A stretch of 54,892 nt of DNA from Deltaproteobacteria bacterium (GTDB taxonomy: Bacteria > Desulfobacterota > DSM-4660 > Desulfatiglandales > HGW-15): assembly GCA_019313825.1 (NCBI GenBank), contig JAFDAM010000005.1, positions 1 through 54,892 of the forward strand, written 5' to 3'. Below are positions 180 through 7,563 of the stretch, in pieces. Numbering within the stretch: the stretch's first letter is position 1; the number at the start of each line of letters is the position of its first letter. Position numbers and translations under genes: made by a program. Below the pieces are notes generated by a model that worked only from the letters and a program-made list of their open reading frames with translations, had not been told where the DNA came from and did no database searches.

Positions 180-1781
180 ATGCGCCCCGAAGACAAATTC
201 TTCCGTATCTCAGATGACGCTAAAATCTGGCAGAAGTATTGCGGCTTCCTGGATCTCTCCCTGGAGGAGTTCATGGAAATGCAGGAGCATTTGCTACTGG
301 ATGAGATCGAGCTTGTGGCTAACAGCCCTTTGGGCAGAAAGATTATGCAGAACCAAAAGCCCTCAAGTGTAGATGAATTCCGCAAGGTTGTTCCCCTGAC
401 CACCTATGAGGATTATGCCCCCTATCTTGGGCAACAGAATGAGGATGCTCTGGCGGTAAAACCCCACATCTGGGCGCATACCTCGGGCGCGGGAGGAACC
501 TTCAAGTGGGTGCCTCTCACTGAGAGGAGCCTCGACATATGGGTTAGGAACGGAATAGCTATGATGATCCTTGCATCAGCTAGCAGTAAAGGGGAGGTCA
601 ATATTCAACCAGGGATTCGACTGTTCCATAATACACCGCCCAGACCCTATGGCTCGGCCATCGTCACCTACGCCATGGCTGAACGGTTCTCTATGCAAGA
701 CATGCCCCCCCTAGAGGAATCGGAGATGATGGCGTTTCCGCAGAAGATTGAAAAGGGCGTCAGTATGGCTTTGCTAAAGGGGATAGATGTTATTTACTCT
801 CTCAGTAGCGTCTTAGTCAAGATTGGGGAGGGCTTAGGCCAGCGCAGCGGAGAGAGGAAGTTTTCCCTTGCGATGCTCCACCCGGCCTTGCTCTTCCGCA
901 TAATCAGGGCCAAGCTGCGCGCGAAAAGGGAGGGGAGAGCAATGCTGCCCCGAGACCTCTGGAACCCAAGGGCTGTCCTCTGCGCGGGAACAGACACCTC
1001 TATTTACCGGGATAAGATAGCCTACTACTGGGGGAAAACACCCTGCGAATTCTATGTCTTCACTGAAGGGGGGCCCTTAGCTCTGGAGGGGTGGAACAGG
1101 AAAGGGCTGGTCTTTATCCCGGACCTGGGTTTCCTGGAGTTCATCCCCGAGAAGGAATGGTGCAAAAGTCGGGAAGATAAGGAATACCAGCCCCCAACCG
1201 TTCTCTTGAATGAGCTTGAGGAGGGGAAGACCTATGAGGTTGTCACCACCAACTTCCACGGCATGCCCTTCCTGAGATACCGACCGGGAGACTTGCTCAG
1301 AGTAGTCGCCCTGAGGGATGAGGAGACGGGCTGTCAGCTCCCCCAGATGGTCTTCGCCGGGCGGGTGGGTGATATCATCGATGTTCTCGGGATTGCCAGG
1401 CTGGATGAACGCACCGTCTGGCATGCTATAGCTGGTACCGGGGTCGACTTCGAAGACTGGACAATGCGCAAGGAGCAGGAGGAAGGTAAGCCTGTCATTC
1501 ACCTCTACATTGAGCTGAAACAAGGAGAGAAAAGAACGGCGGAGGAGCTGCGGTATCTCGTCAACGAGCAGATCAGGGTTATGGATCGCCATTATAAGGA
1601 AGCTACCACCGACCTGGAACCGAATCCCCTGAGGGTGAGCCTCCTCCCCCAGGGCAGCTTCCAGCGTTATTTCGAAGAGAAAAAGAAAGAAGGGGCCAGC
1701 ATGGCACATCTCAAGCCCACCCACATGTGTGCTTCGGATGAGGTTATGGAAAAGCTCCTTCACCTGAGCAAAGGAGGGTAA
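180..1781 (+). CDS. GH3-family acyl-adenylating enzyme
   Basis: The 533-aa product resembles the GH3 (auxin-responsive promoter) branch of the ANL adenylate-forming superfamily, which activates carboxylic acids with ATP and passes the acyl group to an amine or thiol. The P-loop-like motif TSGAGGTFKWVPLT lies near residue 102, and the FLRYRPGDLLRV motif, typical of GH3 proteins, near residue 366. No signal peptide or membrane helix is seen, so it is probably cytoplasmic. I chose the ATG at 180 because AAAGGAGG sits 9 bases upstream; an in-frame ATG at 141 lacks a ribosome site. The stop codon overlaps the start of the sensor kinase gene (TAATG), which implies translational coupling. The substrate cannot be read from the sequence; a phenylacetate-CoA-ligase-like role is the main alternative. 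Confidence 0.8.
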   Translation: MRPEDKFFRISDDAKIWQKYCGFLDLSLEEFMEMQEHLLLDEIELVANSPLGRKIMQNQKPSSVDEFRKVVPLTTYEDYAPYLGQQNEDALAVKPHIWAHTSGAGGTFKWVPLTERSLDIWVRNGIAMMILASASSKGEVNIQPGIRLFHNTPPRPYGSAIVTYAMAERFSMQDMPPLEESEMMAFPQKIEKGVSMALLKGIDVIYSLSSVLVKIGEGLGQRSGERKFSLAMLHPALLFRIIRAKLRAKREGRAMLPRDLWNPRAVLCAGTDTSIYRDKIAYYWGKTPCEFYVFTEGGPLALEGWNRKGLVFIPDLGFLEFIPEKEWCKSREDKEYQPPTVLLNELEEGKTYEVVTTNFHGMPFLRYRPGDLLRVVALRDEETGCQLPQMVFAGRVGDIIDVLGIARLDERTVWHAIAGTGVDFEDWTMRKEQEEGKPVIHLYIELKQGEKRTAEELRYLVNEQIRVMDRHYKEATTDLEPNPLRVSLLPQGSFQRYFEEKKKEGASMAHLKPTHMCASDEVMEKLLHLSKGG

Positions 1782-4700
1782 TGAATCTATACCTTTCAAT
1801 GCCAGTAGTTGGCTTTATTATCACTCTTATCCTGTCTTTTTTGGTGATATGGAGGCAGCGTAGAAGCTTTGCTCACCGGCTATTCTTCTTTTTTCTTCTT
1901 TCGGTGGCACTCTATTGCATAACCCTCTTTTTCATGCGTGCCAGCCCTGATTTTGAGAGCGCCCTCCTCTGGGAAAAGGCAATGATAGCCATGGTCCCTA
2001 CCCTTTCTCTTTTCTTCCTCCACTTTACCTTTGCCTATACTGGCATAAGACCGAAAAGAGGCGTCATCCCTGTACTCTACGTGCTTCTGCTCGTGGTATT
2101 TGTTCTCTCCCCAAGCGACTTGTTCATAAGAGGTATGTCGAGAGACACCTACGGGTATTACCCCCTTTCAGGACCACTTTTCCGCCTCCTTATGCCAGCA
2201 ACCTATCTTCTTCTGACGTATGCTCTTATCAACCTTATCAAAGCATATAGAGCCTCCAATGTGCATGAGGAAAGGAACTGTTACCTTTACATTTTTATCG
2301 GCATGGGTTTCGCTGCCGTTACGGCGATACCTGATGTTCTCTCTGCTTTGGGGATCATCCTCCCCCCCATGGGAGTCATCGGTACCCTGCTTCTTTGTAT
2401 CTTCACCACCATAGCGATCTTGAAATACCACCTGCTGGATATCCACGTCGTATTCCGAAAGGGTATGGCCTACGTTCTGGTAAGTGCCGCAGTGGCCATA
2501 CCCTATGCAGGATTATTATATTTGATGAGTTACATGTTTGAGGCAATACTGCAGCCATGGTGGGCACACACTTTCATTATATTATTGTTAGCCATTATCC
2601 TGCGACCGCTATATAGCTGGTCACAACAGTTTGCAGACCTGCTCTTTTACCGAGATAGATATGATTACCTCAAGGCACTGGAGCAATTCACTCGTGAAAC
2701 TCAAACTCTCACGAGAGTTGAGAAGATAGGCTCTACCATGGTTGAACTGGTCAACGGCGCATTGCGAAGCTCAAGTGCCTGCCTGTTACTGCCGGATGAA
2801 AACACTGACGGTTTTACTGTTGTATCTTCTGCCTGCTTGGACAGACCTCCCTCTGGAATTGTGCTGAGGAACAACAGCCCTCTTGTCAAATGGTTGAAGT
2901 TTCACAAGGGCATTCTGTTTTCTGAAGAGATCCACATTATTCCTCAATTGCAAAGCTTAACGTGCAGAGAAGAGGATAACCTTGAACAGATGAGAGCAGA
3001 GCTTTTTGTTCCTATCAAGAGTCGAGAGGGTGAATTATCGGGATTGCTGGTCTTAGGGCCAAAGATTTCCCAACAGTCCTATTCCAGTGAAGATACACGG
3101 TTACTTTCCACCCTGGCCGGTCAGATGTCCATGAACATAGAGAATGTAAAGTTATACAGCGATGTCCTACGATCGAGGGAGAACCTGCAAGTATGGCTGG
3201 GTAGCATGAGTGATTGCGTATTGATTGTAAGTGCAGACCATATTGTACAATTTGTAAACACAGCGGCAGAAGAGAAGTTTGGCATAAATAATGGTCAGGT
3301 ATGCTGGAGTAGCCTGGGTAAAGGCTCAAGGTGTTCTGATTGTCCCATGGAGCATGCTTCCCACAAAAACAGGGGAGGATCACAATTCACAAACATTATT
3401 TGGGACAGAGAATTCGATGTGGCGGCAGCCCCGCTTTCAAACCCTGACGGCAGCCTGTCCATTATTGAAGTACTAAGAGACATCACAGAGCGCAGGCAGG
3501 CAGAGGAGGCGGCACGGGTTAGCGAAAAAAGATTGCGAGACCTGTATGAAGAGGCCCCAATTGCCTATCTTACCGTTGACCTAAAAAGAATAATCGGCAA
3601 TTGCAACAGGATGGCTGAAGAGATATCAGGATACGATCGAGAGGAATTAAACGGTAAGGACGTGATGGAACTGTTTTCTGAGACACATGACGGCAAAGAC
3701 AAGGCTAATGCGATATTTGAAAGGTTTCTCCGGGGTGAGAGAATTCGCAATGAACAAATCCGGATCATTAAGAAGGATGGTACCTTGACCTGGGGCAGCC
3801 TGACCTTAAACGGTATACTGGATGAGGATGAAAATATAATCGCAAGCAGGTGTATGATAAGTGATATTAACCATCGTGTTGAACTTGAAGCCCAGTTTCT
3901 ACAGGCCCAGAAGATGGAAGCCCTGGGAACTCTGGCAGGAGGCATAGCTCATGACTTCAATAACCTGCTCATGGGTATTCAGGGCCGCGCCTCCCTGATG
4001 CTGATAGGTGCTGATTCTTCCCATCCCCATTTTGAGCATCTAAAGGAGGTGGAGGAATATGTCAAAAGCGCGGCGGGTCTTACCGGACAGCTCCTCGGTT
4101 TCGCCAGGGGCGGTAAATACGAGGTCATATCCACTGACCTGAATGAACACATAAAGGCTCAGAATCGTATGTTCGGCCGCACCAAGAAAGAGATTACTAT
4201 TCGCGGAAAATATGAAGAGGATCTGTGGAGAACAGAGGTTGATCAGGGACAGATCGGGCAGGCTCTGTTGAACATCTATGTCAATGCCTGGCAGGCGATG
4301 CCCGGCGGTGGAAACCTCTACATTGAAACAAAAAACATTATTCTGAATGAGGGCTTTGCCGGCGCATATCAGGTAGAACCCGGCAGGTATGTAAAGATAT
4401 CCATTAGGGATACCGGGATCGGGATGGATGAAGAGACAAGAAATAAGATATTTGATCCATTCTTTACCACCAAGGAGATAGGCAGGGGAACAGGGCTGGG
4501 CCTTGCCTCTGTTTACGGCATTATCAAGAATCATGACGGCTTTATTGATGTCCACAGCAAGAAAGACGAAGGGAGCACCTTTGATATCTATCTGCCGGCA
4601 ATAGAAGAAAAGAGTATAGAACAAAAAACAAAGAGCGATATCAGTCTTGAGATCATCAGAGGCACGGGGACGGTACTTCTTGTGGACGACGAAGATATGA

Positions 4701-5044
4701 TTATCGATGTGGGGGAGAAGATACTTAAGGAGATAGGCTACGAGGTACTGACAGCAAGAAGCGGGAAGGATGCCTTGGAGATAGTCGGTAAAGCAAAGGA
4801 CCACCATGCTCCTTCACCTGACATAGTCATCCTGGACATGGTCATGCCTGACATGAACGGTAGTGAGGCCTATGACAGGATAAAGGAGATCAGCCCTGAC
4901 ATTAAAGTTCTTCTTTCAAGCGGATACAGTATTGCCGGGCACGCTGCCGAGATATTGAAACGGGGTTGTGACGGCTTCATACAGAAGCCGTTTAGTATGA
5001 GAGTCCTTGCCCGGAAGATCAGGGAGATTCTGGATACAGGATAG
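1781..5044 (+). CDS. Hybrid sensor histidine kinase (7TM-GAF-PAS-PAS-HisKA-HATPase-REC)
   Basis: This 1087-aa membrane kinase has seven or eight hydrophobic helices in residues 1-260 (histidine-kinase 7TM type). A GAF-like region follows at about 300-463, then PAS domains at about 467-575 and 586-700. The HisKA motif [11 protein letters not shown] carries the presumed phospho-acceptor His724. The HATPase_c domain spans about 815-940 ([20 protein letters not shown]). A C-terminal receiver starts with VLLVDDED near 964, with the likely acceptor Asp1019 in [12 protein letters not shown] and the conserved lysine in QKPF. The first PAS has a C-x10-C-x2-C group ([14 protein letters not shown]) that could bind metal or sense redox. 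No DNA-binding output domain is present, so signalling would go through the receiver or an unseen phosphotransfer partner. The start overlaps the GH3 stop by one base. Confidence 0.92.
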
Positions 5045-5157: not shown

Positions 5158-6210
5158 ATGAAAATTACGCGCAGAGATTTTATCAAAAGCTCTCTTTTCA
5201 TGGGTACCTCTCTCTTTATATCCCCCTTACCCCTCCATGCCGCTCAAAAAGGGACAAAACCATGGAAGCCTGCCTATGAGAGACTGGAGCAAGAAGGTGG
5301 ACTGGCTCAAAAGATCAAACAGGCCTACGCCATATTCGAAGAATGCCGACTCTGTCCCAGACAGTGCGGGGTAAATCGTCTGAAAGGAGAAAGGGGATTC
5401 TGCCGGGCACCGGCAAAACCCGTGATCTACAGCATGCAGCCCCATTTTGGAGAAGAGATATCACTTGTCGGCCAAAATGGTTCCGGCACCATCTTCTTTT
5501 CCAACTGCAACCTCCGCTGCGCCTTCTGTCAAAACTGGCCTATCTCACATGAGGGAAGAGGAAGAGAAGTTCAAGATGAAGACGTGGCGGATATGATGAT
5601 CAAGCTTCAGGATATCGGCTGCCATAACATCAACTTTGTCACTCCGACTCACGTAATGCCCAATATCCTTAATGCCGTGAGAATTGCCTTAAAAAAAGGG
5701 CTTCATCTTCCCCTTGTTTACAACACCAGCGGGTACGAACGCTTGGAGATATTGAGGCTACTGGACAATATCGTAGACATCTATCTGCCTGACATGAAAT
5801 ATATGGATGCCTATAAGGCGGAAAAATATTCATCCGGCGCTTCAGACTATCCGGAAGTCGCGCAGCAAGCCATAATCGAAATGAACAGCCAGGTCGGGGA
5901 ACTACTGACCGATGAAAAAGGAATTGCCCTTCGCGGCCTGATGATCCGACACCTGGTTATGCCAAACCGGGTGGCCGGGACAGAGAAATTCGTCAGGTGG
6001 GTATCTGAGAGTCTTTCCAGATCGACCTATGTAAACATAATGGCTCAATACCGCGTGGAATACCAGGCCTTTAATTATCCGGAGATTGCACGGGGAATCA
6101 CTGTGCAGGAATTCCTGGAAGCAATGAAATGGGCTGAAAAATCCGGTTTGACCAACCTTGACCCTCAGTCCGTGGCGATCAAGAACATTTATTTAAAGCA
6201 CCGATCATAG
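5158..6210 (+). CDS. TAT-exported PflX-like radical SAM protein
   Basis: The 350-aa protein begins with the twin-arginine-like leader MKITRRDFIKSSLFMGTSL and a hydrophobic stretch ending near ALHAAQ-type residues, so it is predicted to be exported folded. An N-terminal Cys group (CRLCPRQC, about residues 63-70, then GFCR) precedes the radical-SAM motif CNLRCAFC (Cys117, Cys121, Cys124). The surrounding HFGEE and GSGTIFFSNCNLRC sequence is typical of COG1313, the PflX-like activase relatives. Radical SAM enzymes cleave S-adenosylmethionine with a 4Fe-4S cluster; the target here is unknown. No glycyl-radical enzyme is nearby. The gene stands 113 bp downstream of the kinase and converges on the AmrS-like gene. 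A TAT leader on a radical-SAM enzyme is unusual, because SAM and low-potential electrons are cytoplasmic; the leader may instead be an uncleaved anchor. Confidence 0.8.
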   Translation: MKITRRDFIKSSLFMGTSLFISPLPLHAAQKGTKPWKPAYERLEQEGGLAQKIKQAYAIFEECRLCPRQCGVNRLKGERGFCRAPAKPVIYSMQPHFGEEISLVGQNGSGTIFFSNCNLRCAFCQNWPISHEGRGREVQDEDVADMMIKLQDIGCHNINFVTPTHVMPNILNAVRIALKKGLHLPLVYNTSGYERLEILRLLDNIVDIYLPDMKYMDAYKAEKYSSGASDYPEVAQQAIIEMNSQVGELLTDEKGIALRGLMIRHLVMPNRVAGTEKFVRWVSESLSRSTYVNIMAQYRVEYQAFNYPEIARGITVQEFLEAMKWAEKSGLTNLDPQSVAIKNIYLKHRS

Positions 6211-6219
6211 TAAAATATC

Positions 6220-6336
6220 GGTAAAGTTTAAAAGTGTGTACATTATCAGTTTCATGAGGAAATGTTTTTTTTAAAATGATTAAATCATGTGATGCTCATT
6301 TCTTCAAAGCGATATTTAAAATCCTGTGCTGTCCCT
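6220..6336. repeat. Partial copy of palindromic element (left arm)
   Basis: About 97 bases match the left arm of the complete element at 13980-14280: both begin GGTAAAGTT, then carry AAAGTGTG, TATCAGTTTCATGAGGAAATG and TCTTCAAAGCGATAT. After GATAT this copy jumps to TTTAAAATCCTGTGCTGTCC, which resembles the centre of the other copy, so the inner palindrome arm has been deleted and the right half is missing. It fills the gap between two convergent genes and may act as a transcription barrier. Confidence 0.75.
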
Positions 6337-6354
6337 ATCTTATAGCTCGCACGT

Positions 6355-7563
6355 TCAGTCCCAGATTCCGGGTATGGGCTTTCCGCAATATCCGCACTTC
6401 CCTTCCTTCACACGCATCTCAGTAATCATGTATCCTGTCCGCTGGATTACTATCTTCCCGCACCTGGGGCAGTATGTATTCCAACCCTCGTGCCCGGGCA
6501 CCTTCCCTATATAGACATATTCTAGACCAATAGATATAGCCAGGGCCCGAGCCTTCTCCAGCATAGAAACCGGCGTTAAAGGTAGACGCTGGAGCTTATT
6601 CAGAGGATAGAACCGGGAGAAGTGGACGGGTGTATCAGCGCCCAGTTCTCTTTTCACCCAGAGGCACATCTCCTTCACCTCCGACATCTCATCATTCTTT
6701 GTGGGGATCATGAGATTAGTGATCTCTAAATGTATCTTCTCCTGTTTAAGCGTCTTCAGGGTCTCGAGTACCGGGGCCAGTTCACCGTTTGACAATTCGC
6801 GATAAAAATTCTCCGTGAATCCCTTTAGATCTATCTGTGCCGCATCAAGCACCCTGCACAGGTTTCGAAGCGGTCCCTGATTGATGAAGCCATTGGAGTG
6901 TATCACATTCATAAGGCCGGCCTTCTTTGCAAATGAGGCGATATCTGACATGTATTCATAAAAGACAGTGGGCTCCGCATAAGTGTATGATATGCAAGGT
7001 GCACCCATCTCATTGGCCTTCTTCACCATAATCTCCGGCGGAATGTCATAGCTGTATACATCTTCAGGGGAAGCCTGGGATATCTCCCAATTCTCGCAAA
7101 ACTTACACTGGAGATTGCACCCCGCTGTTGATATGGTCAAAGAATTACTACCTGGAAGGAGATGGAAAAATGGTTCTTTCTCGACCGGATCCAAATGAAC
7201 CACGCAAGGATTCCCATAAACCAGACTGTATAATCTCCCATCCCGATTTTCGCGTACCCTGCAAAAGCCCCTCTTCCCCATGGAGATACGGCATCGTCTG
7301 GGACAAAGCTCGCACTGGGTCTCTCTCCCCCCAAGAGGGGAATAATAGGGTGACAGCTTTGTTTTAATAAGACCTTTTTGGGCTATTTGCGCCGCTAGAC
7401 TTTTTGGAAAGCCGATGAGGTGAGTGAAGCAAAGGGCGCAGAAACCCGTTCCGCACAACTTCAAAAAATCGCGCTTTGTTAATTTGCGCACAGTGATGCG
7501 CTCACACGCCCCACTGTCTTGCGTGTGTAATATAGTGGAATGGTCCGTCAGGTTTTCAATCAT
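6355..7563 (-). CDS. amrS: AmmeMemoRadiSam-system-type radical SAM protein with TAT-like leader
   Basis: The 402-aa product is a COG1180 (PflA-related) radical SAM protein. It has an N-terminal Cys group CELCPRRCRI, the cluster motif CNLQCKFC followed by ENWEISQ, and a C-terminal four-cysteine group (YCPRCGK ... CGYCGKPIPG) that probably binds zinc or a second cluster. This layout fits AmrS of the AmmeMemoRadiSam system, whose chemistry is not established from this window. The usual partners (AMMECR1 and Memo domains) are absent here. Residues 25-50 (VRKLTKRDFLKLCGTGFCAL) look like a twin-arginine leader with KR instead of RR. The first ATG (7563) gives about 24 residues before it and has no good ribosome site; a GTG at 7491 would start directly at the leader. 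It converges on the PflX-like gene. Confidence 0.8.
   Translation of the reverse strand: MIENLTDHSTILHTQDSGACERITVRKLTKRDFLKLCGTGFCALCFTHLIGFPKSLAAQIAQKGLIKTKLSPYYSPLGGRETQCELCPRRCRISMGKRGFCRVRENRDGRLYSLVYGNPCVVHLDPVEKEPFFHLLPGSNSLTISTAGCNLQCKFCENWEISQASPEDVYSYDIPPEIMVKKANEMGAPCISYTYAEPTVFYEYMSDIASFAKKAGLMNVIHSNGFINQGPLRNLCRVLDAAQIDLKGFTENFYRELSNGELAPVLETLKTLKQEKIHLEITNLMIPTKNDEMSEVKEMCLWVKRELGADTPVHFSRFYPLNKLQRLPLTPVSMLEKARALAISIGLEYVYIGKVPGHEGWNTYCPRCGKIVIQRTGYMITEMRVKEGKCGYCGKPIPGIWD

Follow-up and report, generated by a model that had tools for sequence, protein, structure and literature searches.

The window analysed here is the whole 54,892-nucleotide stretch of contig JAFDAM010000005.1 (C102) from a Deltaproteobacteria bacterium, whose 2.27-Mb genome is held in 158 contigs and is rated 64.6% complete. 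It carries two genes, A and B, that encode radical S-adenosylmethionine (SAM) proteins with leaders resembling those of twin-arginine translocation (Tat) substrates (Table 1). The first-pass annotation had described a convergent pair of this kind, and the pair was confirmed, with the refinement that the motif of B is a KR variant. Both proteins matched the radical-SAM model PF04055 and contain CX3CX2C, placing them in the radical-SAM superfamily. PF04055 was the sole family model that A matched above its cut-off; its PflX-like name and its assignment to COG1313 are our assumption. B was scored against the curated model TIGR04337 (AmmeMemoSam_rS) and reads as a clear member of that family, which supplies the radical-SAM protein of the AmmeMemoRadiSam system. 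Sequence searches for relatives of solved structure returned none for A and only pyruvate formate-lyase activating enzymes for B. A predicted structure of A, built from a four-row alignment, had a mean predicted local distance difference test score (pLDDT) of 49 and was not used.

A resembles other PflX-like radical-SAM proteins: a leaderless paralog on contig C62 of the same genome shares about 50% identity and both cysteine motifs with it. It differs from them in its RR leader and in belonging to a leader-bearing group of its own. In a search of 85 genomes of the class, full-length leader-type relatives of A were 68 to 81% identical to it and aligned from residue 1 or 2, whereas a second paralog (about 50% identity), listed for many of these genomes and represented here by the C62 protein, aligned from near residue 36. 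A scan of genome contigs for A gave three loci in metagenome-assembled genomes deposited as "Deltaproteobacteria bacterium"; their Myxococcota label reflects only the NCBI filing of that name, and no phylum was taken from it. At loci L106 to L108, A is directly followed by a gene for a flavin adenine dinucleotide (FAD) oxidoreductase-like protein with a rhodanese-like C-terminal part (a shorter open reading frame [ORF] in L108), named from reading of the sequence.

Table 1. Features of genes A and B in the window (aa, amino acids; pN/pS, ratio of nonsynonymous to synonymous differences per site)
Feature	Position	Strand	Details
ORF A	5158..6210	+	350 aa; PflX-like radical-SAM protein with Tat-type leader; PF04055, 49.1 bits (cut-off, 29.5)
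Leader of A, residues 1-28	5158..5241	+	Layout MKI-TRRDFIK-(hydrophobic)-LHA; cleavage after LHA guessed by eye; ATG 3 codons before motif in 19/20 relatives, GTG in 1/20
Twin-arginine motif TRRDFIK of A	5167..5187	+	RR in 34/34 relatives with a complete N terminus; motif pN/pS 0.05
N-terminal cysteine motif CxxCxxxC...C of A	5344..5403	+	C63, C66, C70 and C82 invariant in a 4-row alignment
Radical-SAM cysteine motif CNLRCAFC of A	5506..5529	+	CX3CX2C in 34/34 leader-type A proteins examined
Gap separating convergent A and B	6211..6354	.	144 bp
ORF B	6355..7563	-	Up to 402 aa; TIGR04337 protein with Tat-like leader, 353.2 bits (curated cut-off, 220); PF04055, 65.8 bits
Radical-SAM cysteine motif CNLQCKFC of B	7096..7119	-	CX3CX2C in 31/31 pair-type B proteins examined (27 by a stricter pattern, 4 by the plain pattern)
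N-terminal cysteine motif CxxCxxxC...C of B	7261..7314	-	C84, C87, C91 and C101 invariant in a 3-row alignment
Leader of B, possible GTG start to SLAA c-region	7390..7491	-	Purifying selection on the leader codons; pN/pS 1.00 upstream of them; exact start uncertain
Twin-arginine-type motif TKRDFLK of B, with KR	7459..7479	-	[KR]R in 28/28 relatives with a complete N terminus

Constraint on the leaders and conservation of the pair

Constraint on the leaders was measured as pN/pS over close pairs of relatives, admitting only pairs with pS between 0.02 and 0.6. The comparison for A used 20 rows (17 of the class and L106 to L108, with identity of at least 64%; L064, at a contig end, was omitted) and that for B used 18 (16 of the class, L106 and L108, with identity of at least 58%; L061 and L008, at contig ends, were omitted). 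Over 59 close pairs of A, pN/pS was 0.05 in the seven residues of the motif, 0.20 in the mature part, 0.53 in the h/c-region, and 1.02 in the upstream frame, the leader motif being the most constrained part of the protein. Over 34 close pairs of B, the corresponding values were 0.13, 0.18, 0.45, and 1.00. A fixed motif, a variable hydrophobic stretch, and non-coding sequence upstream make up the pattern that, by sequence comparison, is expected of a Tat signal. For B, translation more probably starts at the GTG at position 7491 than at the ATG at 7563, because the reading frame 10 to 33 codons ahead of the motif has a pN/pS of 1.00 and looks non-coding.

The 34 proteins in which the RR of A was counted comprised the 20 rows above, the N-terminal fragment L084, and 14 proteins from outside the class, with L306 merged with L107, which has the same leader. 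All 20 relatives of A compared had RR and a start codon no more than 8 codons before the motif. The 28 relatives of B with a complete N terminus, counted after exclusion of the broken or cut rows L008, L024, L061, and L082, divided into 20 with KR, a known natural Tat variant, and 8 with RR. The chance level was gauged on another 184 ORFs (200 aa or longer) from the context loci: a [KR]R-type motif occurred in the first 40 residues of 3, one of them in the RR form. We conclude that the leaders are real sequence features and not products of chance. A has a conserved RR, a hydrophobic stretch, and an Ala-type cleavage site (read by eye), as Tat substrates do, and A and, less clearly, B resemble Tat substrates with iron-sulfur (Fe-S) clusters in their motif, hydrophobic stretch, and Ala-type c-region.

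Among 20 loci of the class with a leader-type A whose gene order was compared, the window included, B was the neighbour of A in 17. In the other three, A lay near a contig end without B (L081 and L084) or the neighbouring B was broken (L082). Across these genomes, A and B form a unit as far as gene neighbourhood can tell. Outside the class, RR was present in all 14 leader-type A proteins, and a leader-bearing B lay within the 1.5-kb flank in 10 of the 14. By position, 4 of these 10 pairs were convergent, 5 divergent, and 1 tandem, and the pairs at L106 and L108 were also divergent. Convergence is therefore not essential, and gene orientation, which varies between loci, was dropped as a meaningful feature. 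At L078 (genome G042), a Memo gene with a signal peptide stands directly before A and B. Elsewhere in the window, positions 141 to 1781 and 1781 to 5044 encode a GH3-family protein and then a seven-transmembrane (7TM) hybrid histidine kinase with PAS and receiver domains, the two ends touching.

AMMECR1, Memo, and a spermidine-synthase-like membrane protein

The first-pass annotation had found the usual AmmeMemo partners to be absent nearby and had asked whether they occur elsewhere in the genome. Their absence held for the window but not for the genome, in which genome-wide searches found one AMMECR1 (C60; TIGR04335, 210.8 bits; cut-off, 99) and two Memo proteins, one on C47 (TIGR04336, 288.1 bits; cut-off, 26) and one on C54. 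The AMMECR1 and the C47 Memo both have apparent signal peptides: in AMMECR1, a long hydrophobic stretch ends about 30 residues before the domain, and the Memo has a signal-peptide-like start before its domain. Among the loci examined, the plain hydrophobicity rule used for signal calls was passed by 16 of the 17 Memo proteins that resemble the C47 protein at 50% identity or more. AMMECR1 and Memo thus occur above cut-offs in the same genome as B, with the genes apart, on C102 (B), C60 (AMMECR1), and C47 and C54 (Memo). The likeness to the AmmeMemoRadiSam system (TIGR04335, TIGR04336, and TIGR04337) is that all three families are present above their cut-offs, with B as the radical-SAM member. 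The set differs from that system in that its components bear export signals and lie on different contigs, and A and a membrane spermidine-synthase-like protein are extras.

The gene for this last protein lies directly after the signal-peptide AMMECR1 of C60 (locus L086, 3869 to 5971, minus strand) and encodes 700 aa. Its product matched PF01564 (61.2 bits; cut-off, 22.9), NF037959 (42.7 bits; cut-off, 40), and PRK03612 (139.3 bits, under the cut-off of 472), and in these matches it resembles the membrane polyamine aminopropyltransferases (NF002956 PRK03612 and NF037959 MFS_SpdSyn). Unlike them, proteins of the C60 type have the domain flanked on either side by hydrophobic segments and are linked to AMMECR1 and TIGR04337 with export signals. 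Over 46 rows, 14 hydrophobic segments were found; most basic residues fall in even-numbered loops, and the domain occupies an odd-numbered one. By the positive-inside rule, this arrangement puts the spermidine-synthase-like domain outside, and the domain is predicted to be periplasmic on a topology obtained by simple calculation, with no topology program. Related spermidine-synthase-like genes recur beside leader-bearing radical-SAM proteins of both kinds. A more distant group of PflX-like proteins with RR leaders (L311 to L318) is 48 to 57% identical to A; in L311 to L313 these proteins adjoin a related spermidine-synthase-like gene, and in L314 and L317 a lipoprotein-like Cys follows the leader.

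Gene order was compared in 21 operon-region loci (L086, L090, L093, and L167 to L184, most of them picked for having both matches on one contig). In 15 of them, AMMECR1, the membrane spermidine-synthase-like protein (about 700 aa), and a leader-bearing TIGR04337 followed one another on the same strand. The other six were the present genome, with no TIGR04337 after the first two genes; L175, with AMMECR1 hidden by ORF picking; L180 and L182, at contig ends; L184, with only the spermidine-synthase-like gene and TIGR04337; and L181, with a fusion and a different gene order. B is the only TIGR04337 above the cut-off found in its genome and may serve the AMMECR1 operon of C60, a reading taken from an incomplete genome.

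A tree of 62 TIGR04337 proteins separated a branch of 49 rows, which held all 45 leader-labelled rows, from 13 leaderless rows with support of 100/100. The four rows of the large branch that were not leader labelled were L061, truncated at a contig end; L095 and L100, with RG or RS; and L039, leaderless and on a long branch. The operon-type leaders of L095 (G003) and of L100/L221 (G017) have Gly or Ser as the second basic residue, as if the Tat motif were decaying.

Leaders on AMMECR1 and on TIGR04337 occurred together in the class. A leader-bearing TIGR04337 was present in 53 of the 55 genomes with a leader-bearing or fused AMMECR1 versus none of the 8 with a leaderless AMMECR1 (Fisher P = 1e-8, a value not corrected for kinship). 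Of the 68 class genomes with an AMMECR1 match, 65 entered the count, among them two with a truncated AMMECR1 and a leader-bearing TIGR04337. G076 and G066 were counted as leader-bearing AMMECR1 without leader-bearing TIGR04337; both are borderline, one protein of G076 carrying an ITRKEFLK leader (by reading) and the AMMECR1 frame of G066 having no start before its hydrophobic stretch, and the table was kept. Two of the 8 genomes with leaderless AMMECR1 (G034 and G081) have no full-length TIGR04337. Stand-alone AMMECR1 from outside the class was leaderless in all 13 cases with a complete N terminus.

In the phylum, TIGR04335 was matched in 278 of 297 sampled genomes, many times in long frames. 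Among 20 long-frame loci fetched from other classes and chosen by us, 17 encode a Memo-AMMECR1 fusion with a signal-like N terminus (by reading), the exceptions being L280, L283, and L285. TIGR04337 was a neighbour at 4 of the 20, and each of these 4 has an RR leader. L181 (G063) and L237 (G047) also encode Memo-AMMECR1 fusions with a signal-peptide-like start, which is lipoprotein-like in L181.

Proposed export and its alternatives

We consider it probable, on the sequence evidence, that A and B are Tat-exported radical-SAM proteins of an extracytoplasmic branch of the AmmeMemoRadiSam system that modifies an envelope substrate with exported partners. A shared exported or membrane role had been proposed by the first-pass annotation. 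The proposal is supported in part, by motif constraint, by retention of the pair in other families of the phylum, and by the export signals of the partners, comparative evidence beyond the reach of that annotation; the KR of B in place of RR does not favour it, and the role itself is suggested by comparison. The leaders and their constraint, the intact radical-SAM motifs, the co-occurrence, and the operons are seen directly in the DNA, and from there we infer that the proteins are exported, where catalysis occurs, how SAM is delivered, and what serves as reductant and substrate.

Under this proposal, A and B would be folded and loaded with [4Fe-4S] clusters in the cytoplasm and then exported by Tat, which carries folded, cofactor-loaded proteins and so suits cluster-bearing radical-SAM proteins. 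AMMECR1 and Memo, which Sec-type signals suit, would reach the same compartment by such signal peptides or, in some relatives, as lipoproteins, and the multihelix membrane protein with its outward spermidine-synthase-like domain would complete the set. The most likely joint role would be to modify a cell-envelope substrate by radical chemistry. Either SAM or a molecule derived from it would be brought across the membrane, possibly by or with the spermidine-synthase-like membrane protein, which is a natural candidate, and the respiratory chain would supply the electrons. The broader claim is that many families of one phylum have a radical-SAM pathway outside the cytoplasm, in which exported enzymes, AMMECR1, Memo, and the membrane protein handle SAM or a derivative in the periplasm so as to modify a component of the envelope. 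We advance this claim tentatively, as a possibility in which we have less confidence than in export.

Several observations weigh against export of A and B. Radical-SAM enzymes need SAM and a low-potential reductant, both available in the cytoplasm, where these enzymes are for that reason taken to reside; to our knowledge, neither is known in the periplasm. Most B relatives carry KR rather than RR (20/28), and only 8 of 18 have an ATG, GTG, or TTG in the 8 codons that precede the motif, which leaves the start of B uncertain. Tat-signal family models gave no match to A or B at E values up to 0.1. The hydrophobicity rule also marked 36 of the 184 background ORFs, so a single case carries little weight and it is recurrence across genomes that matters. 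In this genome, the second Memo, on C54, is leaderless and AMMECR1 is not a neighbour of A and B. The exported-looking fusion of L181 (G063) adjoins a TIGR04337 without a leader; G063 has another TIGR04337 with one. Among 62 leader-bearing TIGR04337 proteins outside the pair group, 54 have RK, a poor Tat motif, and RG, RS, and RI occur once each, so proteins of that branch may take a different route or carry a signal that has weakened. The motif census accepts only rows that fit a loose motif and thus cannot reveal leaders without one. TatC was not found in this incomplete genome, nor in G003, G006, or G045 of the other 18 class genomes with a leader-type A, and G045 is rated 95% complete. A TatA/B/E match is present in this genome, and TatC was found in 15 of the 19 class genomes with a leader-type A and in 71 of all 85. 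G007, a single-contig genome with an operon-type leader on TIGR04337, likewise gave no TatC match.

Tat export of Fe-S proteins is common, and A and B could be exported without performing SAM chemistry, their clusters serving as periplasmic electron carriers or metal sites. This would draw on the same export evidence (leader constraint, RR, and co-occurrence) and would remove the problem of SAM and reductant; if SAM is unavailable outside, the cores may act as electron carriers. We regard it as unlikely, in that CX3CX2C is intact in every relative examined, the mature parts are strongly constrained (pN/pS 0.18 to 0.20), and B lies well above the TIGR04337 cut-off.

Less likely still is that the leaders are membrane anchors and the catalytic domains stay inside, an arrangement that would retain access to cytosolic SAM and would fit both the failure to find TatC in this genome and in G045 and the KR and RK variants of B-type proteins. 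However, a single hydrophobic stretch behind a basic n-region predicts a C terminus outside, the Ala-containing c-regions resemble cleavage sites (by eye), and the signals on the AMMECR1 and Memo partners are of Sec type or lipoprotein-like. A start-site artefact, by which ordinary cytosolic enzymes would merely have in-frame sequence upstream, is consistent with the mostly unconserved 28 residues that the ATG at 7563 places before the motif of B and with the absence of a start codon near the motif in 10 of 18 B relatives, but it is already disfavoured and highly improbable given that the leader codons of both genes are under purifying selection next to a neutral upstream frame and that the cytosolic paralogs are leaderless, in the case of B across a fully supported branch.

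In the openly licensed literature, judged by titles and the openings of abstracts, we found no report of Tat-exported, exported, or periplasmic radical-SAM enzymes, an idea that may still be published, and nothing on an exported AmmeMemoRadiSam system. The available part of PMC10924467 mentions radical SAM solely for a neighbouring gene, and that of PMC7159879 mentions Memo-Ammecr1 systems, citing Burroughs et al. 2019.

If the conserved exported set to which A and B are assigned here is real, it would mean either SAM chemistry in the periplasm or reuse of the radical-SAM fold without SAM. The AMMECR1/Memo/radical-SAM trio, whose function is unknown and whose first two members have human relatives linked to disease, would then have an assigned compartment, a partner in the membrane, and a genomic neighbourhood.

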